This document shows positions 27,693-40,682 of a stretch of DNA of 64,000 nucleotides, one piece after another. The notes beneath the pieces were generated by a model. It saw only the letters and a program-made list of their open reading frames with translations, had not been told where the DNA came from and did no database searches. The stretch is taken from assembly GCF_002105755.1 (NCBI RefSeq), contig NZ_CP020821.1:2356001-2420000 (forward strand), given 5' to 3'. The DNA comes from Mycobacterium colombiense CECT 3035 (GTDB taxonomy: Bacteria; Actinomycetota; Actinomycetes; Mycobacteriales; Mycobacteriaceae). The number at the start of each line of letters is the position of its first letter. Within the stretch, counting starts at the first letter, position 1. The position numbers and the translations under genes were made by a program.

Positions 27693-28709
27693 TCAGTGCT
27701 GGCTCAGCGTCAGCGTCCCCTTCGTTTGAAGCACTTTGCTGGCGGTGATCTTCTCGGTTCTGCGCGTCTCGCGTTCGAGGTAGCGCTGCTTGGAATCGTC
27801 GAATTTCTGCGAGGCGTCCTCGAGCTCCTTGACCAGCAACGCAAGGTCGTCGCGCATGGCGGCGGCCTCCCCGGTGAAGTCCTCGCGTTCGAAGATCCGC
27901 CACTTCTTCAGCACCGGCATGACCACTTCTTCGAGATGAATGCGCGGGTCATAGACTCCGCCCACCGCGATGATCACCGCCTTGCGGCGAAACTCCGGGA
28001 CCGTGAATCCGGGCATCTTGAAATTGCGCAGAATCCGGTGCACCGACCTCATCGCCTGATCGGGCGCGATGTCCAGGCCCGCGGCGCTGATATCCCGGTA
28101 GAAGAGCATGTGCAGGTTCTCGTCATGCGACACCCTGGCCATCAACTGCTCGGCGACCGCGTCGTTGCTGACCTTGCCGGTGTTGCGGTGCGAGACACGG
28201 GTGGCGAGCTCCTGGAACGAGACGTACATGACCGAGTCGAACAGGCTCTCAGCGAACATATCGCCCTGCTGGTTCTGGCCGGGACTGAAGCCCCTGGTCA
28301 TTTGCTCGAGCCGCAGCTTCTCCAGCTCGACCGGGTCGACGGCGCGAGTGACCACCAGATAGTCGCGCAGCGCCGTGCTGTGCCGGGCCTCCTCTGCGGT
28401 CCACCGATTCACCCACTGACCCCATGGACCGTCCATGCTGAAGTTCATCGCGATCTCGCGGTGATACGACGGTAAGTTGTCCTCGGTCAACAGGTTTTGC
28501 ACCATCGCTACCTGCGCGACGTCGGGCAGCCGCGTCTGCCCGGGCTCCCAATCCTGGCCGTCCGGCCCGTAGAAGTTTCTGCCGTCCGTCCAGGGAACGT
28601 AGTCGTGCGGGCTCCACTCCTTGAACATCGAAAGGTGGCGATTGAGCAGGCGCTCAACCACCGGCTCGAGCTCGTGAAGTAGCTGCAGGTTGGTCAGCGG
28701 CTTGGACAC
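27693..28709 (-). CDS. acyl-ACP desaturase (DesA1 paralogue)
   Basis: A 338-residue fatty acyl-ACP desaturase, the same length as M. tuberculosis DesA1. The GTG at 28709 has GGGAGG five bases upstream. Di-iron ligands are in TEDNLPSYHREI, WTAEEARHSTAL and SHDENLHMLFYRD. It introduces a cis double bond into long-chain acyl-ACP, in DesA1 needed for mycolic acid synthesis. The C-terminal tail (from about residue 300) differs most from DesA1. It lies 183 bases downstream of mbtI on the same strand, so a role in making the acyl chain of mycobactin or another lipid is possible; no iron box precedes it directly. Confidence 0.93.
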   Translation of the reverse strand: MSKPLTNLQLLHELEPVVERLLNRHLSMFKEWSPHDYVPWTDGRNFYGPDGQDWEPGQTRLPDVAQVAMVQNLLTEDNLPSYHREIAMNFSMDGPWGQWVNRWTAEEARHSTALRDYLVVTRAVDPVELEKLRLEQMTRGFSPGQNQQGDMFAESLFDSVMYVSFQELATRVSHRNTGKVSNDAVAEQLMARVSHDENLHMLFYRDISAAGLDIAPDQAMRSVHRILRNFKMPGFTVPEFRRKAVIIAVGGVYDPRIHLEEVVMPVLKKWRIFEREDFTGEAAAMRDDLALLVKELEDASQKFDDSKQRYLERETRRTEKITASKVLQTKGTLTLSQH

Positions 28710-33691: not shown

Positions 33692-33784
33692 GTGACTGTC
33701 GACCAGCCCAGCCCGCACATTGTGCTCGTGGCGCGACGGCACATTGATCTCAAGCGCGTTTGCAGCTGTATCTGTCTGCCTTGA
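33692..33784 (+). CDS. leaderless cysteine-rich upstream peptide controlling sirA-cysH
   Basis: A 30-codon ORF starting GTG (first residues VTVDQPSPHI) and ending RVCSCICLP, with three Cys codons (33761, 33767, 33773) in the last eight codons. It begins six bases after a CACAAT -10 and has no ribosome site, so it should be translated as a leaderless message. The sirA start follows its stop after 113 bases. Polycysteine leaderless ORFs of this form have been described in mycobacteria as cysteine-responsive attenuators: shortage of Cys-tRNA stalls the ribosome and raises expression of the genes behind. The match in form and place is close; the mechanism here is inferred. Confidence 0.75.
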   Translation: MTVDQPSPHIVLVARRHIDLKRVCSCICLP

Positions 33785-33897
33785 CGTGGTAGACCCAGGC
33801 CCCCTGTGTCTCCAGCTGGCCGATGGTTCCGCGCCGCCTGAAAGTGCCGGTGAACTGCTCTGGCCGCGCTGGCGATCTTTTTAAGGAGAACTTCCCG

Positions 33898-35565
33898 ATG
33901 ACCACCGCCCGAGCCGCAAAGCCCCGTAACGAGGGCCAATGGGCACTGGGAAATCGTGAGCCGCTGAATCCGAACGAAGAGATGAAGCAGGCCGGCGCCC
34001 CGCTGGACGTCCGGGAGCGCATCGAGACGGTCTACGCCCAGAACGGCTTCGACAGCATCGACAAGAGCGACCTGCGGGGGCGTTTCCGCTGGTGGGGGCT
34101 CTACACCCAGCGCGAACAGGGCTACGACGGCACGTTCACCGGCGACGACAACGCCGAGCTGCTGGAAGCCAAGTACTTCATGATGCGGGTGCGATGCGAC
34201 GGCGGCGCCCTGTCGGCGGCCGCGCTGCGCACCGTGGGCCAGATTTCCACCGAATTCGGCCGCGACACCGCCGACATCACCGACCGCGAGAACGTCCAGT
34301 ACCACTGGATCGAGGTGGAGAACGTCCCCGAGATCTGGCGGCGGCTGGCCGAGGTCGGCCTGCAGACCGCCGAGGCGTGCGGTGACTGCCCCCGCGTGAT
34401 CTTGGGCTCGCCGCTGGCCGGCGAGTCGCTCGACGAGGTGCTCGACCCCAGCTGGGCGATCGAGGAGATCGCCCGCCGCTACATCGGCCAGCCCGACTTC
34501 GCCGACCTGCCGCGCAAGTACAAGACAGCGATCTCGGGGCTGCAGGATGTGGTGCACGAGGTCAACGACATCGCGTTCATCGGCGTCAACCACCCCGAGC
34601 ACGGCCCGGGGCTGGACCTGTGGGTCGGCGGTGGGCTGTCGACCAACCCGATGCTGGCCCAGCGGGTCGGCGCCTGGGTGCCGCTCGAAGAGGTGCCCGA
34701 GGTATGGAACGCGGTGACGTCGATCTTCCGCGATTACGGCTACCGACGGCTGCGGTCCAAGGCGCGGCTGAAGTTCCTGATCAAGGACTGGGGTATCGAA
34801 AAATTCCGTGAAGTCCTCGAACAGGAGTACCTCAAGCGTCCGCTGATCGACGGCCCGGCTCCCGAGCCGCTCAAGCACCCGATCGACCACGTCGGCGTGC
34901 AGCGGCTCAAGAACGGGCTCAACGCGGTGGGCGTCGCCTCGATCGCGGGCCGGGTGTCGGGCACCATCCTCACCGCGGTGGCCGACCTCGCCGAACAAGC
35001 CGGCTCGGACCGGATCCGGCTCACCCCTTACCAGAAGCTGGTCATCCTCGACGTGCCCGACGACAAGCTCGACGAGCTGGTCGCCGGCCTGGAGGCGCTG
35101 GGCCTGCAGTCGCGGCCGTCGCATTGGCGGCGGAATGTGATGGCGTGCACGGGGATCGAGTTCTGCAAGTTGTCCTTCGCCGAAACCCGGGTCAAGGCGC
35201 AATCTTTGGTGCCCGAGCTGGAAAGCCGCCTCGCTGACATCAACGAGCAGCTCGACGTGCCGATCACCGTCAACATCAACGGCTGTCCCAACTCGTGCGC
35301 CCGCATCCAGGTCGCCGACATCGGGCTCAAAGGCCAGATGGTCGACGATGGCGAGGGCGGCTCGGTCGAGGGCTTCCAGGTGCACCTGGGCGGCAGCCTG
35401 GGCCTGGACAGCGGCTTTGGCCGAAAGCTGCGCCAGCACAAGGTCACCGGCGACGAGCTCGGCGACTACATCGAGCGGGTCACACGCAACTTCCTGAAAT
35501 ATCGCGGCGAGGGTGAACGTTTCGCACAGTGGGCTATGAGGGCAGACGAGGACGATTTGCGATGA
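33898..35565 (+). CDS. sirA: ferredoxin-dependent sulfite reductase
   Basis: A 555-residue siroheme/[4Fe-4S] sulfite reductase (the protein called NirA in M. tuberculosis), making sulfide from sulfite. Start ATG 33898 with AAGGAG nine bases upstream. Seen: RFRWWGLYTQR, TDRENVQYHWI, the cluster ligands CTGIEFC and CPNSC, and GFQVHLGGSLG. The two cysteine motifs hold the cluster and siroheme. First gene of the plus-strand sulfur operon; cysH overlaps it by ATGA. Control through the cysteine-rich upstream ORF. Confidence 0.96.
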   Translation: MTTARAAKPRNEGQWALGNREPLNPNEEMKQAGAPLDVRERIETVYAQNGFDSIDKSDLRGRFRWWGLYTQREQGYDGTFTGDDNAELLEAKYFMMRVRCDGGALSAAALRTVGQISTEFGRDTADITDRENVQYHWIEVENVPEIWRRLAEVGLQTAEACGDCPRVILGSPLAGESLDEVLDPSWAIEEIARRYIGQPDFADLPRKYKTAISGLQDVVHEVNDIAFIGVNHPEHGPGLDLWVGGGLSTNPMLAQRVGAWVPLEEVPEVWNAVTSIFRDYGYRRLRSKARLKFLIKDWGIEKFREVLEQEYLKRPLIDGPAPEPLKHPIDHVGVQRLKNGLNAVGVASIAGRVSGTILTAVADLAEQAGSDRIRLTPYQKLVILDVPDDKLDELVAGLEALGLQSRPSHWRRNVMACTGIEFCKLSFAETRVKAQSLVPELESRLADINEQLDVPITVNINGCPNSCARIQVADIGLKGQMVDDGEGGSVEGFQVHLGGSLGLDSGFGRKLRQHKVTGDELGDYIERVTRNFLKYRGEGERFAQWAMRADEDDLR

Positions 35566-38253: not shown

Positions 38254-39122
38254 GCGGACAGCTCCTCCCGCTTGGCCGCGCGTCCGCCCACGATCCGCAG
38301 GACGAGCAGCACGACAAACGAAATGCCCAACAGCACAATCGAAATTGCGGCGGCGCCGGTGCGGTCGTCGTTCTCGATCAGCGTGCGTATCCACTGCGAC
38401 GACACTTCGGTCTTGCCCGGTACGGCACCGCCGATGAGCACCACGGATCCGAACTCGCCGATCGCCCGTGAGAACGCCAGGCCCGCACCGGATAACAACG
38501 CGGGCAGCAGTGACGGCAGCACCACGGAGGTGAAGATCTTCGGGCCGCTGGCGCCCAGCGACGCCGCGGCCTCCTCGGTTTCGCGATCCAATTCCAGCAG
38601 CACCGGCTGGACGGCGCGCACCACGAACGGCAGCGTGACGAAGGCCAGCGCCACCGCCACACCCCACGATGTGTGCTGCAGGTGCAGGCCGACCGGGCTG
38701 TTGTTGCCGTACAGCGCCAGCATCACCAGGCTGGCGACGATGGTGGGCAGCGCGAACGGTAGGTCGATGATCGCGTCGACGAGTCGCTTGCCCGGAAAGT
38801 CGTCACGAACCAGCACCCACGCGATCACCAGGCCGAAGACCAGGTTGAGCACGGTGACGCCGGCCGAGATGGTCAGGGTCACCCGGAACGACTCGAGGGC
38901 GGCATTCGAGGAAACCGCCAGCCAGAAGGCGCGCCAGCCGCCGCCCGCGGATTGCCAGGCGATCGCCGCCAGCGGCAGCAGCACGATCACCGACAGCCAC
39001 ACCGTGGCCGCCCCGACCCGCAGGGCGGTGGTCCCGCGGCCGCGCCCGGGAAGCGGTCCCGGTGGCGCGTCACCGCTGAGTTCGGGCCGGACTGCCAGCG
39101 GGTCCGGCGTGATGGCCGTCAT
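38250..39122 (-). CDS. cysT: sulfate ABC transporter permease CysT
   Basis: A 290-residue permease with six helices and the coupling loop EEAAASLGASGPKIFTSVVLP. It starts at the ATG at 39122, which overlaps the subI stop. The N-terminal 35 residues are a proline/glycine-rich cytoplasmic tail before the first helix. Pairs with CysW. Confidence 0.95.
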   Translation of the reverse strand: MTAITPDPLAVRPELSGDAPPGPLPGRGRGTTALRVGAATVWLSVIVLLPLAAIAWQSAGGGWRAFWLAVSSNAALESFRVTLTISAGVTVLNLVFGLVIAWVLVRDDFPGKRLVDAIIDLPFALPTIVASLVMLALYGNNSPVGLHLQHTSWGVAVALAFVTLPFVVRAVQPVLLELDRETEEAAASLGASGPKIFTSVVLPSLLPALLSGAGLAFSRAIGEFGSVVLIGGAVPGKTEVSSQWIRTLIENDDRTGAAAISIVLLGISFVVLLVLRIVGGRAAKREELSA

Positions 39123-40150
39123 CCGGTGGCCTTCGTGTAGATCTTGGTGATGCTGCCGGTGTTCTTGTCGAACAGCTGGGGATCCGCGGTGGTCCAGCCG
39201 CCGAGGTCGGCGATGGTCCACAGCTTGGCCGGCACCGGATACTGGTTTCGGAAGTCGGCGGCGACGGCAGGATCGACCGGGCGGAAACCGGCCTGCGCCC
39301 AGACCTTTTGGGCCGCGGCCGTGTATTGGAAGTTCTTGAACGCGACGGCGGCATCCAGGTGCGGGCTGGTGTTGACCACGGCCACCGGATTGTCGATCCT
39401 GAAGGTCTGGGGCGGGTTGACGTGCTCGACGGGCTTGCCCGCCCGCTCGGTGGCGATGGCCTCGTTCTCGTAGCTGATCAATACGTCACCGCTGCCCTGC
39501 ACGAACACGTCGGTGGCTTCCCGCCCCGAACCGGGGCGCAGCTTGACGTGCTCGGTCACCAACTTCTTGATGAAATCCACCCCGGCGTCGCTGTGGGCGC
39601 CGCCTTCACTCTTCACGGCGTACGGCGCGAGCAGATTCCACTTCGCCGATCCCGAACTCAGCGGGCTGGGCGTGATGACCTCGACGCCCGGCCGCAACAG
39701 GTCATCCCAATCCCTGATGTTCTTCGGATTGCCCTTCCGCACCACCAGCGTGACCACCGAGCCGAAGGGAATTCCCTTGGTGGCGTCGGTATTCCAGTCC
39801 TTGGAAACCTTGCCCGCCTTGACCAGCCGAGCGATGTCGGGTTCCACCGAGAAGTTCACCACGTCGGCCGGCTTGCCGTCGACGACACCACGGGACTGGT
39901 CGCCGGAGGCCCCGTAGGAGGTGACCACCTGCACGCCCTTGCCCTCATCGGAGGCGTTGAACGCCGGAATTATCTTGCTCCACCCCGGTTCTGGGACCGA
40001 GTAGGCGACCAGCGTGATGCTGGTGCGCGCGCCGGACAGCCCACCGCCGCCGACGGCATCGCTGGCCCCGCCGTGACATCCGGCGATGAGGCCGGCAATC
40101 AGCGCAAGGGTGAGGACGGGCCGCCAGTGCCATGCGGTCCTGATGTCCAT
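39119..40150 (-). CDS. subI: sulfate-binding lipoprotein SubI
   Basis: A 343-residue periplasmic-binding protein anchored as a lipoprotein: signal MDIRTAWHWRPVLTL with lipobox LIAGC. Seen: ITLVAYSVPEPGWSKI, TSYGASGDQSRGV, GKPADVVNFS, EVITPSPLSSGSAKWN, then VFVQGSGDVLISYENEA, all typical of the sulfate/thiosulfate binding fold with its anion-binding serines. GGAAGG precedes the ATG. First gene of the import operon; a short cysteine-rich ORF ends 114 bases upstream. Confidence 0.96.
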   Translation of the reverse strand: MDIRTAWHWRPVLTLALIAGLIAGCHGGASDAVGGGGLSGARTSITLVAYSVPEPGWSKIIPAFNASDEGKGVQVVTSYGASGDQSRGVVDGKPADVVNFSVEPDIARLVKAGKVSKDWNTDATKGIPFGSVVTLVVRKGNPKNIRDWDDLLRPGVEVITPSPLSSGSAKWNLLAPYAVKSEGGAHSDAGVDFIKKLVTEHVKLRPGSGREATDVFVQGSGDVLISYENEAIATERAGKPVEHVNPPQTFRIDNPVAVVNTSPHLDAAVAFKNFQYTAAAQKVWAQAGFRPVDPAVAADFRNQYPVPAKLWTIADLGGWTTADPQLFDKNTGSITKIYTKATG

Positions 40151-40264
40151 TGAGGGCCTTCCGATGCAGAACGAATGGGATTTCGGTCCCGTTTCTGCGG
40201 ATAGGCACCTAGAACTTCAGGAGAATTCGAAAACTCCAGACCAGACCGCGCACGGGTTTGGGAG

Positions 40265-40321
40265 TCAGCGACAACAGTGCACGAAGGCATAGCACCCCGG
40301 AATGCCAAATGCCACGCGCAT
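40265..40321 (-). CDS. leaderless cysteine-rich upstream peptide controlling subI-cysTWA
   Basis: An 18-codon ORF reading MRVAFGIPGCYAFVHCCR with Cys at positions 10, 16 and 17. It starts seven bases after a TAGGCT -10 and has no ribosome site, which fits a leaderless message. The subI start lies 114 bases beyond its stop. The segment GCCTTC-G-TGCA inside codons 12-15 can pair with TGCA-TCG-GAAGGC at the subI ribosome site, so a ribosome held at the Cys codons would free that site. This is the second such ORF in the window and matches the one before sirA in design. Confidence 0.7.
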   Translation of the reverse strand: MRVAFGIPGCYAFVHCCR

Positions 40322-40328
40322 GGCGGGA

Positions 40329-40334
40329 AGCCTA
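40329..40334 (-). promoter_or_regulatory. -10 element of the subI leader transcript
   Basis: TAGGCT (coding strand) fits TANNNT and lies seven bases before the ATG of the cysteine-rich ORF, the spacing of a leaderless promoter. Confidence 0.55.
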
Positions 40335-40392
40335 ACAGGAATCGGGATTGCCGCCACCGCAACGGGTGGCGCAGCAAACAAGCGATGCCCGG

Positions 40393-40482
40393 CTAGTGGT
40401 GCATCAAGTGGGTCACCAACCATGTCACGACCACCAGCGCCACCAGGATGACGAGAACCAGCGTCACGTGTGACCGGGGCAT
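40393..40482 (-). CDS. 29-residue single-helix membrane peptide
   Basis: Begins MPRSHVTLVLVILVALVVVT and ends WLVTHLMHH: one hydrophobic helix with basic and histidine ends. The ATG lies five bases after the stop of the small membrane protein upstream, so the two are probably cotranscribed. Function unknown. Confidence 0.55.
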   Translation of the reverse strand: MPRSHVTLVLVILVALVVVTWLVTHLMHH

Positions 40483-40487
40483 CGGCG

Positions 40488-40682
40488 TTACTCGGGCGTC
40501 CCGCCGGCGTGGCGGGCCCGGCGCATCAGCTCGATGCCCTTGCCGAGCGCGCCGTCCAGCACGGCCGCCGTGGCGTAGGCCACCGCCAGCACGATCGGCA
40601 TCACCACCATGGCCTGCAGGACGAAAGGCAGCCCCGAAAGCCACAGCTCGTTGCCGTCCCACCAGTTGAGGAACGCGTTCAC
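40488..40682 (-). CDS. small membrane protein, about 64 residues (Rv2401A-like)
   Basis: GTG start at 40682 gives VNAFLNWWDGNELWLSGLPF and a hydrophobic segment MVVMPIVLAVAYATAAVLDG, then a basic tail RRARHAG. The aromatic, acidic N-terminus followed by one or two helices is what I remember of a small membrane protein in this place of the M. tuberculosis map. The start could also be GTG at 40691. Function unknown. Confidence 0.65.
   Translation of the reverse strand: MNAFLNWWDGNELWLSGLPFVLQAMVVMPIVLAVAYATAAVLDGALGKGIELMRRARHAGGTPE

Follow-up and report, generated by a model that had tools for sequence, protein, structure and literature searches.

The question raised by this locus is by what means a leader ORF of 18 codons could govern the transporter genes behind it. 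The window is the whole stretch of 64,000 nucleotides that was analyzed. On its minus strand, the ORF MRVAFGIPGCYAFVHCCR begins with an ATG at 40321, after a 7-nt spacer behind TAGGCT (40334-40329), and ends with a TGA at 40267-40265, 114 nt before the ATG of subI (40150); subI, cysT, cysW and cysA are the names that we assume for the transporter genes from homology. Cys occupies codons 10, 16 and 17, and the ORF closes with two Cys codons, an Arg codon and the stop codon. The initial annotation had read this geometry in the same way (TAGGCT, seven nucleotides, ATG, 18 codons, Cys at 10, 16 and 17), and it is borne out in full. The start of the ORF 7 nt behind a TANNNT motif is a predicted leaderless start, based on sequence spacing. 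We propose, with moderate confidence, that the subI leader is a cysteine-responsive translational attenuator, in which a stall at the terminal TGT TGT would favor one predicted hairpin, P2, over another, P3 (Table 1).

Table 1. Positions of the subI leader elements and of subI in the window; hairpin arms and segments are predictions.
Feature	Position	Strand	Basis or remark
TAGGCT, predicted -10 element of leaderless promoter	40329..40334	-	TANNNT is a search criterion
Leaderless ORF, 18 codons, MRVAFGIPGCYAFVHCCR then stop	40265..40321	-	counterpart in 108/110 subI loci
TGT TGT, Cys16-Cys17, presumed stall codons	40271..40276	-	TGTTGT in 98/102 distinct leaders
P1 5' arm, GACTCC (stop codon and next bases)	40261..40266	-	75% of cells paired; covariation mixed
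P1 3' arm, GGAGTT	40232..40237	-	same P1 pairing test
P2 5' arm, CCCGT-GC-GCGG (segment 2)	40246..40256	-	GGT at 40242-40240 extends the helix
Segment 3	40188..40206	-	partner shared by P2 and P3; native-versus-cross test
Segment 3 in P2: GCC, CCGC, ACGGG	40206-40204, 40200-40197, 40192-40188	-	pairs with segment 2
Segment 3 in P3: GCCTATCC, GCAGAA	40206-40199, 40198-40193	-	pairs with segment 4
P2 hairpin, predicted ON, anti-sequestering	40188..40256	-	z -2.37; model R1 match E 1.3e-16
Segment 4, TTCTGC and GGAAGGC	40156..40171	-	pairing probability with segment 3 0.99 in the full leader of the window
subI, sulfate-binding lipoprotein; cysT, cysW, cysA after it	39119..40150	-	ORF list, homology

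The leader ORF is real, that is, more than a chance occurrence. When both strands of the window were searched for ORFs of 8-40 codons with adjacent Cys codons, starting 6-8 nt after TANNNT, it was the sole match; in 60 dinucleotide shuffles of the window, such Cys-Cys ORFs occurred at a mean of 0.15, and those with an ATG at 7 nt at 0. We compared 110 subI loci, among them that of the window (L081); 80 of these loci come from the best 80 of 306 SubI matches (73-99% protein identity), the closest named relatives among these best 80 being M. vulneris DSM 45247 (99%) and M. colombiense (97%). With the window counted once, 108 of the 110 loci have a short ORF that shows TANNNT spacing and has Cys toward its end (109 of 111 if the window is counted twice); this shows only that ORFs of this description can be found, the spacing and the Cys near the end being the search criteria themselves. 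Among the 109 rows, with the window counted twice, the spacer has 7 nt in 101 cases and 6 nt in the other 8.

After omission of L093, where the subI start was not recognized, 102 distinct leaders remained, the window's included. Their ORFs range from 16 to 34 codons, with an 18-codon form (n=54, including that of the window) and, within the genus, a 30-codon form (n=21). All of the Cys codons had been put forward as places where a ribosome might wait; conservation upholds the terminal pair, found inside the last four residues in 101 of the 102 leaders, whereas Cys10 is kept in only 49. The final 12 nt of the ORF read exactly TGTTGTCGCTGA in 89 leaders and begin with TGTTGT in 98. Because this ending is kept though the Cys codons of 11 window genes favor TGC (36, against 8 TGT), the conserved end looks like the outcome of a constraint at the nucleotide level. 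The two loci without such an ORF are L043, which has none at all, and L076 (M. lepromatosis), where the frame overruns the usual end and stop codon and the terminal Cys-Cys is lost. In M. leprae (L073), two Cys codons are kept, but the peptide reads ..DYCC. Decay of the sensor in the leprosy bacilli is possible, judging by these two leaders. Some genomes carry two copies of subI, with a Cys-Cys leader at each (L060/L018, L061/L051, L069/L023, L157/L178 and L155/L177).

A promoter between the ORF and subI had been named by the initial annotation as evidence that would count against its scheme. The window leader contains no TANNNT motif in that interval, and 17 of the 102 leaders contain one. 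A sigma-70 scan of the window leader also returned no promoter, a result of little weight given that the same scan misses the TAGGCT promoter. No intrinsic terminator was found in 40050-40500. At Rfam gathering scores, there was no match in the leader; one unrelated match lies elsewhere in the window (ASdes sRNA, 71.9 bits, 28324-28391, plus strand). A table in PMC4803200 gives the M. tuberculosis subI gene as dependent on SigH (74.7); the subI promoter (about 40329-40370 in the window) may therefore add an oxidative-stress response of transcription to whatever control the leader exerts.

Two mutually exclusive hairpins are predicted in the leader, P2 and P3, both of which use segment 3 and lie wholly behind the ORF stop codon. 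P3 is predicted to hide the subI Shine-Dalgarno sequence GGAAGG (40162-40157), which lies within the GGAAGGC of segment 4, and P2 would take the partner segment of P3; a further predicted hairpin, P1, would enclose the 5' arm of P2 within its loop. The energy of the P3 hairpin in the window is -20.0 kcal/mol. Against 200 shuffles, the z scores in the window are -2.37 for P2 (2 of 200 as good) and -2.45 for P3 (3 of 200 as good); with slightly different ends and 60 shuffles, they are -1.62 and -2.73, respectively. The entire 114-nt stretch after the stop codon of the window ORF folds with P3 at z -1.15. Over the 102 leaders, the mean z is -1.79 for P2 and -1.75 for P3, with values below -2 in 43 and 41 leaders, respectively. 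The 5' arm of P2 begins 5-10 nt past the stop codon in 100 of the 102 leaders, at 59 to 114 nt from the ORF start. Among nine further leaders cut at 90 nt, six contain both P2 helices, two have the GCGG helix but no complete CCCGT helix, and one has neither.

The pairing of P2 is retained. In 59 sequences, it is kept in 93.7% of 527 cells, compared with 26-61% for versions slid along the sequence, and in an alignment of 44 sequences, in 91.8% (slid, 46-58%). Pairs changed on both sides number 4 in the 59 sequences, against 1.3 in shuffles, with 4 of 500 shuffles as high (7 of 500 in the 44-sequence alignment); these leaders share kinship, so that p values overstate their independence. Counted by two-sided cells or by pair types, slid versions do as well as the native P2 (at -1, 9 cells and 10 types), and one of them outscores it in covariation in the alignment of 44 sequences. 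Because slid versions reach similar change counts, P2 rests, as judged from these alignments, more on retained pairing than on covariation. In P3, pairing is retained at 81.9% (slid, 25-50%), and no significant covariation was detected (41-257 of 500 shuffles as high). For P1, 75% of the cells are paired in the 59 sequences (slid, 25-57%), and the covariation is mixed (0, 417, 1, 72 and 7 of 500 shuffles as high). RNAalifold found almost nothing in the alignment of the 102 leaders.

Segments that coevolve should form better duplexes with their native partners than with the corresponding segments of other species. With anchored segments of the 102 leaders, the native segment 2:3 duplex beats the cross-species ones in 89% of the leaders (-2.44 kcal/mol), and the native 3:4 duplex in 72% (-1.69 kcal/mol); pairs not expected to form gave +0.27, +0.47 and -0.32 kcal/mol. 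In a duplex run on 96 of the 102 leaders, combinations 1:2, 2:3 and 3:4 gain 1.3-1.9 kcal/mol, 1:4 gains 0.5 and 2:4 gains 0.65, and 1:3 loses 1.6.

For wider searches, a covariance model (R1) was built from 44 sequences of the Cys-Cys/P2 stretch, that of the window among them. In the whole genome, with 150 of 3093 first-look candidates scored, R1 has one strong match, the P2 of the window (E 1.3e-16), followed by a candidate at E 0.27. Twenty-two of 23 further genomes of the genus, some of them close kin of species in R1, are matched (7 of 7 picked by a strict pattern and 15 of 16 others); all 24 hits lie upstream of subI and are accompanied by a Cys-Cys ORF. In these hits, P2 is paired in 92.3% of the cells in an alignment fitted to R1 (slid, 39-67%; 3-36 of 500 shuffles as high), and the native segment 2:3 duplex is better in 83%. 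Under stricter filters, R1 produced no hit in 25 genomes from 25 other genera, and the strict pattern, which combines Cys-Cys and segment 2 at the DNA level, occurs in 11 of 301 genomes of the family, all within the genus. Present once or twice per genome of the genus, always before subI in the hits examined, and at a near-fixed distance from the Cys codons, the element offers a concrete switch to mutate.

Under the translational attenuation that we favor, a shortage of Cys-tRNA would stall the ribosome at the two final Cys codons (TGT TGT) of the predicted leaderless ORF, where its leading edge would mask the arm of P1 that contains the stop codon and leave the 5' arm of P2 free. P2 would form first during transcription and persist, a step that calls for kinetic folding, and the subI Shine-Dalgarno sequence would be left open. 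With plentiful cysteine, the ribosome would reach the stop codon and either cover the P2 5' arm or let P1 lock it; with that arm blocked, P3 would form, and translation of subI-cysTWA would fall.

On the assumption that a stalled ribosome has a footprint of about 14 nt counted from the A-site codon onward, one with Cys16 or Cys17 in the A site would hide the stop codon along with most of the 5' arm of P1, and the 5' arm of P2 would stay accessible. With the nascent RNA taken as ending after segment 3, the mean pairing of segments 2 and 3 over the 102 leaders is 0.58 for an A site seven codons upstream of Cys-Cys; it rises to 0.73-0.74 once the Cys codons are reached (an increase in 99%) and drops to 0.45 when the ribosome is at the stop codon. 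When segment 3 is swapped between species, the peak at the Cys codons is still there but lower (0.65 versus 0.74; native higher in 69%), and it is thus partly a matter of geometry. In the window, the pairing is 0.71 both upstream of and on the Cys codons and 0.44 at the stop codon; because the first two values are the same, stalling adds nothing in the window's own folding, and the decrease at the stop codon is all that remains. Holding P2 in place raises the mean openness of the Shine-Dalgarno sequence from 0.21 to 0.48, with an increase in 91% of the 102 leaders; in the window, holding P2 costs about 10 kcal/mol (median over the 102 leaders, 3.75) and brings the openness to only 0.25. At equilibrium of the full leader, the mean openness over the 102 leaders is 0.16 seven codons before the Cys codons and 0.18-0.21 at them, and that of the window is 0.012 at all 15 ribosome positions, so that equilibrium folding failed as proof of a switch for the window. 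Because the equilibrium switch is weak, and flat in the window, we infer that the switch must be kinetic.

The initial annotation had sought the helix that hides the ribosome site elsewhere, in a direct pairing of codons 12-15 with the subI Shine-Dalgarno region, upon which the stalled ribosome would sit. The complementarity is present: GCCTTC (codons 12-13, 40288-40283) is an exact match to GAAGGC in the Shine-Dalgarno region of the window, TGCA occurs on both sides, and the isolated duplex has an energy of -14.7 kcal/mol. The local P3 hairpin, however, reaches -20.0 kcal/mol, and in the full leader of the window the site pairs with the ORF at 0.00 and with the local segment at 0.99. Over the 102 leaders, the mean pairing of the Shine-Dalgarno sequence is 0.63 with segment 3 and 0.03 with the ORF; segment 3 is its main partner in 66 leaders and the ORF in 3, none of which belongs to the window or to its 16 close relatives (SubI identity of 90% or more, the window itself not counted among the 16). 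Loss of the complementarity in close relatives, which had been named as counter-evidence, is seen in part: codons 12-13 pair at six of six positions (G-U allowed) in 12 of the 16 close relatives and, at the scale of the distinct leaders, in only 28 of 102 including the window, leaving at least one mismatch in 4 and 74, respectively. Covariation of the two segments had been suggested as a check; for codons 9-15 and the Shine-Dalgarno region, the native-versus-cross gain is only 0.46 kcal/mol, the native duplex being better in 63% of the 102 leaders. Given the folding, the 28 of 102 and this small gain, direct pairing was rejected as the main helix, and we consider it very unlikely to be the mechanism. 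The broader idea behind it, that a ribosome waiting at the Cys codons of a leaderless ORF frees the subI site under low cysteine, fits the conservation, the published attenuators and Ms4533A. Pairing of codons 9-15 with segment 2 was also tried (native versus cross, -0.78 kcal/mol, 68% of the 102 leaders); because its hairpin shows no unusual stability (mean z -0.37; +0.98 in the window), it was left out of the main model.

That thermodynamics alone gives the window no translational switch counts in favor of transcriptional attenuation, Rho-dependent or other, in which the stalled ribosome would shield the leader from premature termination. Attenuation of transcription was suggested for mycobacterial cys operons in 2005 (PMC1262725), and an untranslated stretch does follow the stop codon here; nevertheless, there is no intrinsic terminator, and the hairpin over the Shine-Dalgarno sequence and its conserved competitor would be left unexplained, which makes this explanation, in our estimate, unlikely. 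The ORF could also be a passive by-product of a promoter close to an ATG, or encode a free small protein, and leaderless transcripts are indeed common in mycobacteria (PMC4633059), but the preference for TGTTGT against the codon usage of the window genes, the near-fixed distance of P2 and the chance expectation of 0.15 per window render this the least probable of the explanations considered. Finally, the peptide itself might act throughout the family, the nascent chain together with the Cys codons stalling the ribosome ahead of the same kind of switch. Such sensing agrees with the low dN/dS of the LALIAVG and AVADV stretches in the 30-codon form (21 distinct leaders). It also agrees with what is seen in other genera, where 16 of 27 subI loci have the core, or a variant of it, upstream of the gene and 9 of these 16 leaders have only one terminal Cys. 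The 18-codon form of the window, however, has Cys-Cys and P2 without the core, so that the explanation is inapplicable here in that form, and selection on a peptide does not by itself demonstrate arrest; as a family-wide mechanism, we rate it as quite unlikely.

In the 30-codon form, the residues of LALIAVG and AVADV are nearly invariant and their codons vary, with dN/dS values of 0.081 and 0.014, respectively, compared with 0.745 for codons 2-12 and 0.95 for codons 20-21. The 16 core-bearing leaders of other genera (in L125-L152, from the 27 loci in 25 genomes; LALIAVG..AVADI or a variant, part of the core being the search pattern of that scan) are leaderless-type ORFs with the typical form RHxLALIAVGxLAVAD(I/V)xC(C)R; three are diverged. 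Among them, dN/dS is 0.23 and 0.29 in the core parts versus 0.81 in the first five codons of the aligned stretch. The LALIAVG..AVADV core is absent from the window's 18 codons and from all 54 distinct 18-codon leaders, and codons 14-15 of the latter have changed little at either kind of site (dN 0.11, dS 0.10). Because a bare codon sensor needs no such core, a role of the nascent peptide is likely in the long, core-bearing forms, to the extent that selection on sequence can indicate it. More speculatively, and in our view doubtfully, the core RHxLALIAVGxLAVAD(I/V)xC(C)R might be an arrest peptide that senses cysteine via its one or two terminal Cys codons and is coupled in Mycobacterium to the anti-sequestering hairpin, the clade of the window having shed the core to respond to codon starvation alone. 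If true, that clade would be a natural experiment separating the arrest-peptide mode from the codon-starvation mode. With the core in the long relatives and absent in the clade of the window, codon-only and nascent-chain-aided sensing of cysteine can be directly tested against each other.

Five of seven longer pre-subI leader peptides that were scanned pass the NCBIfam profile NF042937, "Ms4533A family Cys-rich leader peptide" (51.8, 50.9, 43.9, 31.6 and 31.5 bits; cut-off 31); of the remaining two, one scores 24 and one, a 34-residue form, has no match. We take MSMEG_4533 to be subI and, going by the family name, assume that the position directly upstream of subI is what defines Ms4533A. The window ORF, too, lies directly upstream of subI, is short and ends in Cys codons; the NF042937 scan takes peptides of at least 20 residues, and the window peptide has 18. 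It differs from the long relatives by this length and by the missing LALIAVG..AVADV stretch. Because that stretch is absent, the window peptide is a positional counterpart of Ms4533A and is not filed as a member of the profile. Four long leader peptides had no match in Pfam.

That polycysteine leaderless ORFs act as cysteine-responsive attenuators has been published for M. smegmatis (Canestrari et al. 2020, doi 10.1111/mmi.14498, as cited in PMC9094748, PMC9031893 and PMC13236596). The window leader shares with them the consecutive Cys (codons 16-17) and the location before cysteine-supply genes, and its ORF is predicted to be leaderless from the TANNNT spacing; its P2/P3 pair is drawn here from our own folding analysis. 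Canestrari 2020 is said to describe stalled ribosomes blocking structures that otherwise sequester the downstream ribosome site. With regard to such sequestering, P3 and P2 are predicted in the window leader and P2 is retained across the genus, but the equilibrium switch is weak, and flat in the window. The attenuators of the trp type work by the position of the ribosome on a leader ORF, which selects between mutually exclusive helices, and we propose a similar choice between alternative helices here; the difference is that the output would be translation initiation, that there is no terminator (0 in 40050-40500), and that the mRNA is predicted to start at the ORF.

Leaderless Cys ORFs have been reported before cysA2, Rv0485 and nirA (Shell 2015, PMC4633059), and Cys leader peptides, with Cys runs close to the stop codon, upstream of a cys operon in mycobacteria (Seliverstov 2005, PMC1262725). 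In its treatment of these peptides, the latter paper reports no terminator hairpin that is conserved and describes how they regulate as unknown; the operon concerned appears to be a different one from that of the window. In the portions of the literature searched, no paper describing the RNA structure of the subI leader or selection on the peptide core was found. The regulator is of a known kind, which the initial annotation had rightly recognized; the parts not found in that literature are the two competing hairpins and the peptide core under selection.

The window contains another Cys-rich leader ORF, VTVDQPSPHIVLVARRHIDLKRVCSCICLP (33692-33784, plus strand), located before a sulfite reductase gene (ORF 33823-35565). 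It matches the NCBIfam profile NF042936, Ms4527A leader, at 49.2 bits (cut-off 45), and is probably the first Cys-rich leader ORF implied by the initial annotation, which had called the one before subI the "second".
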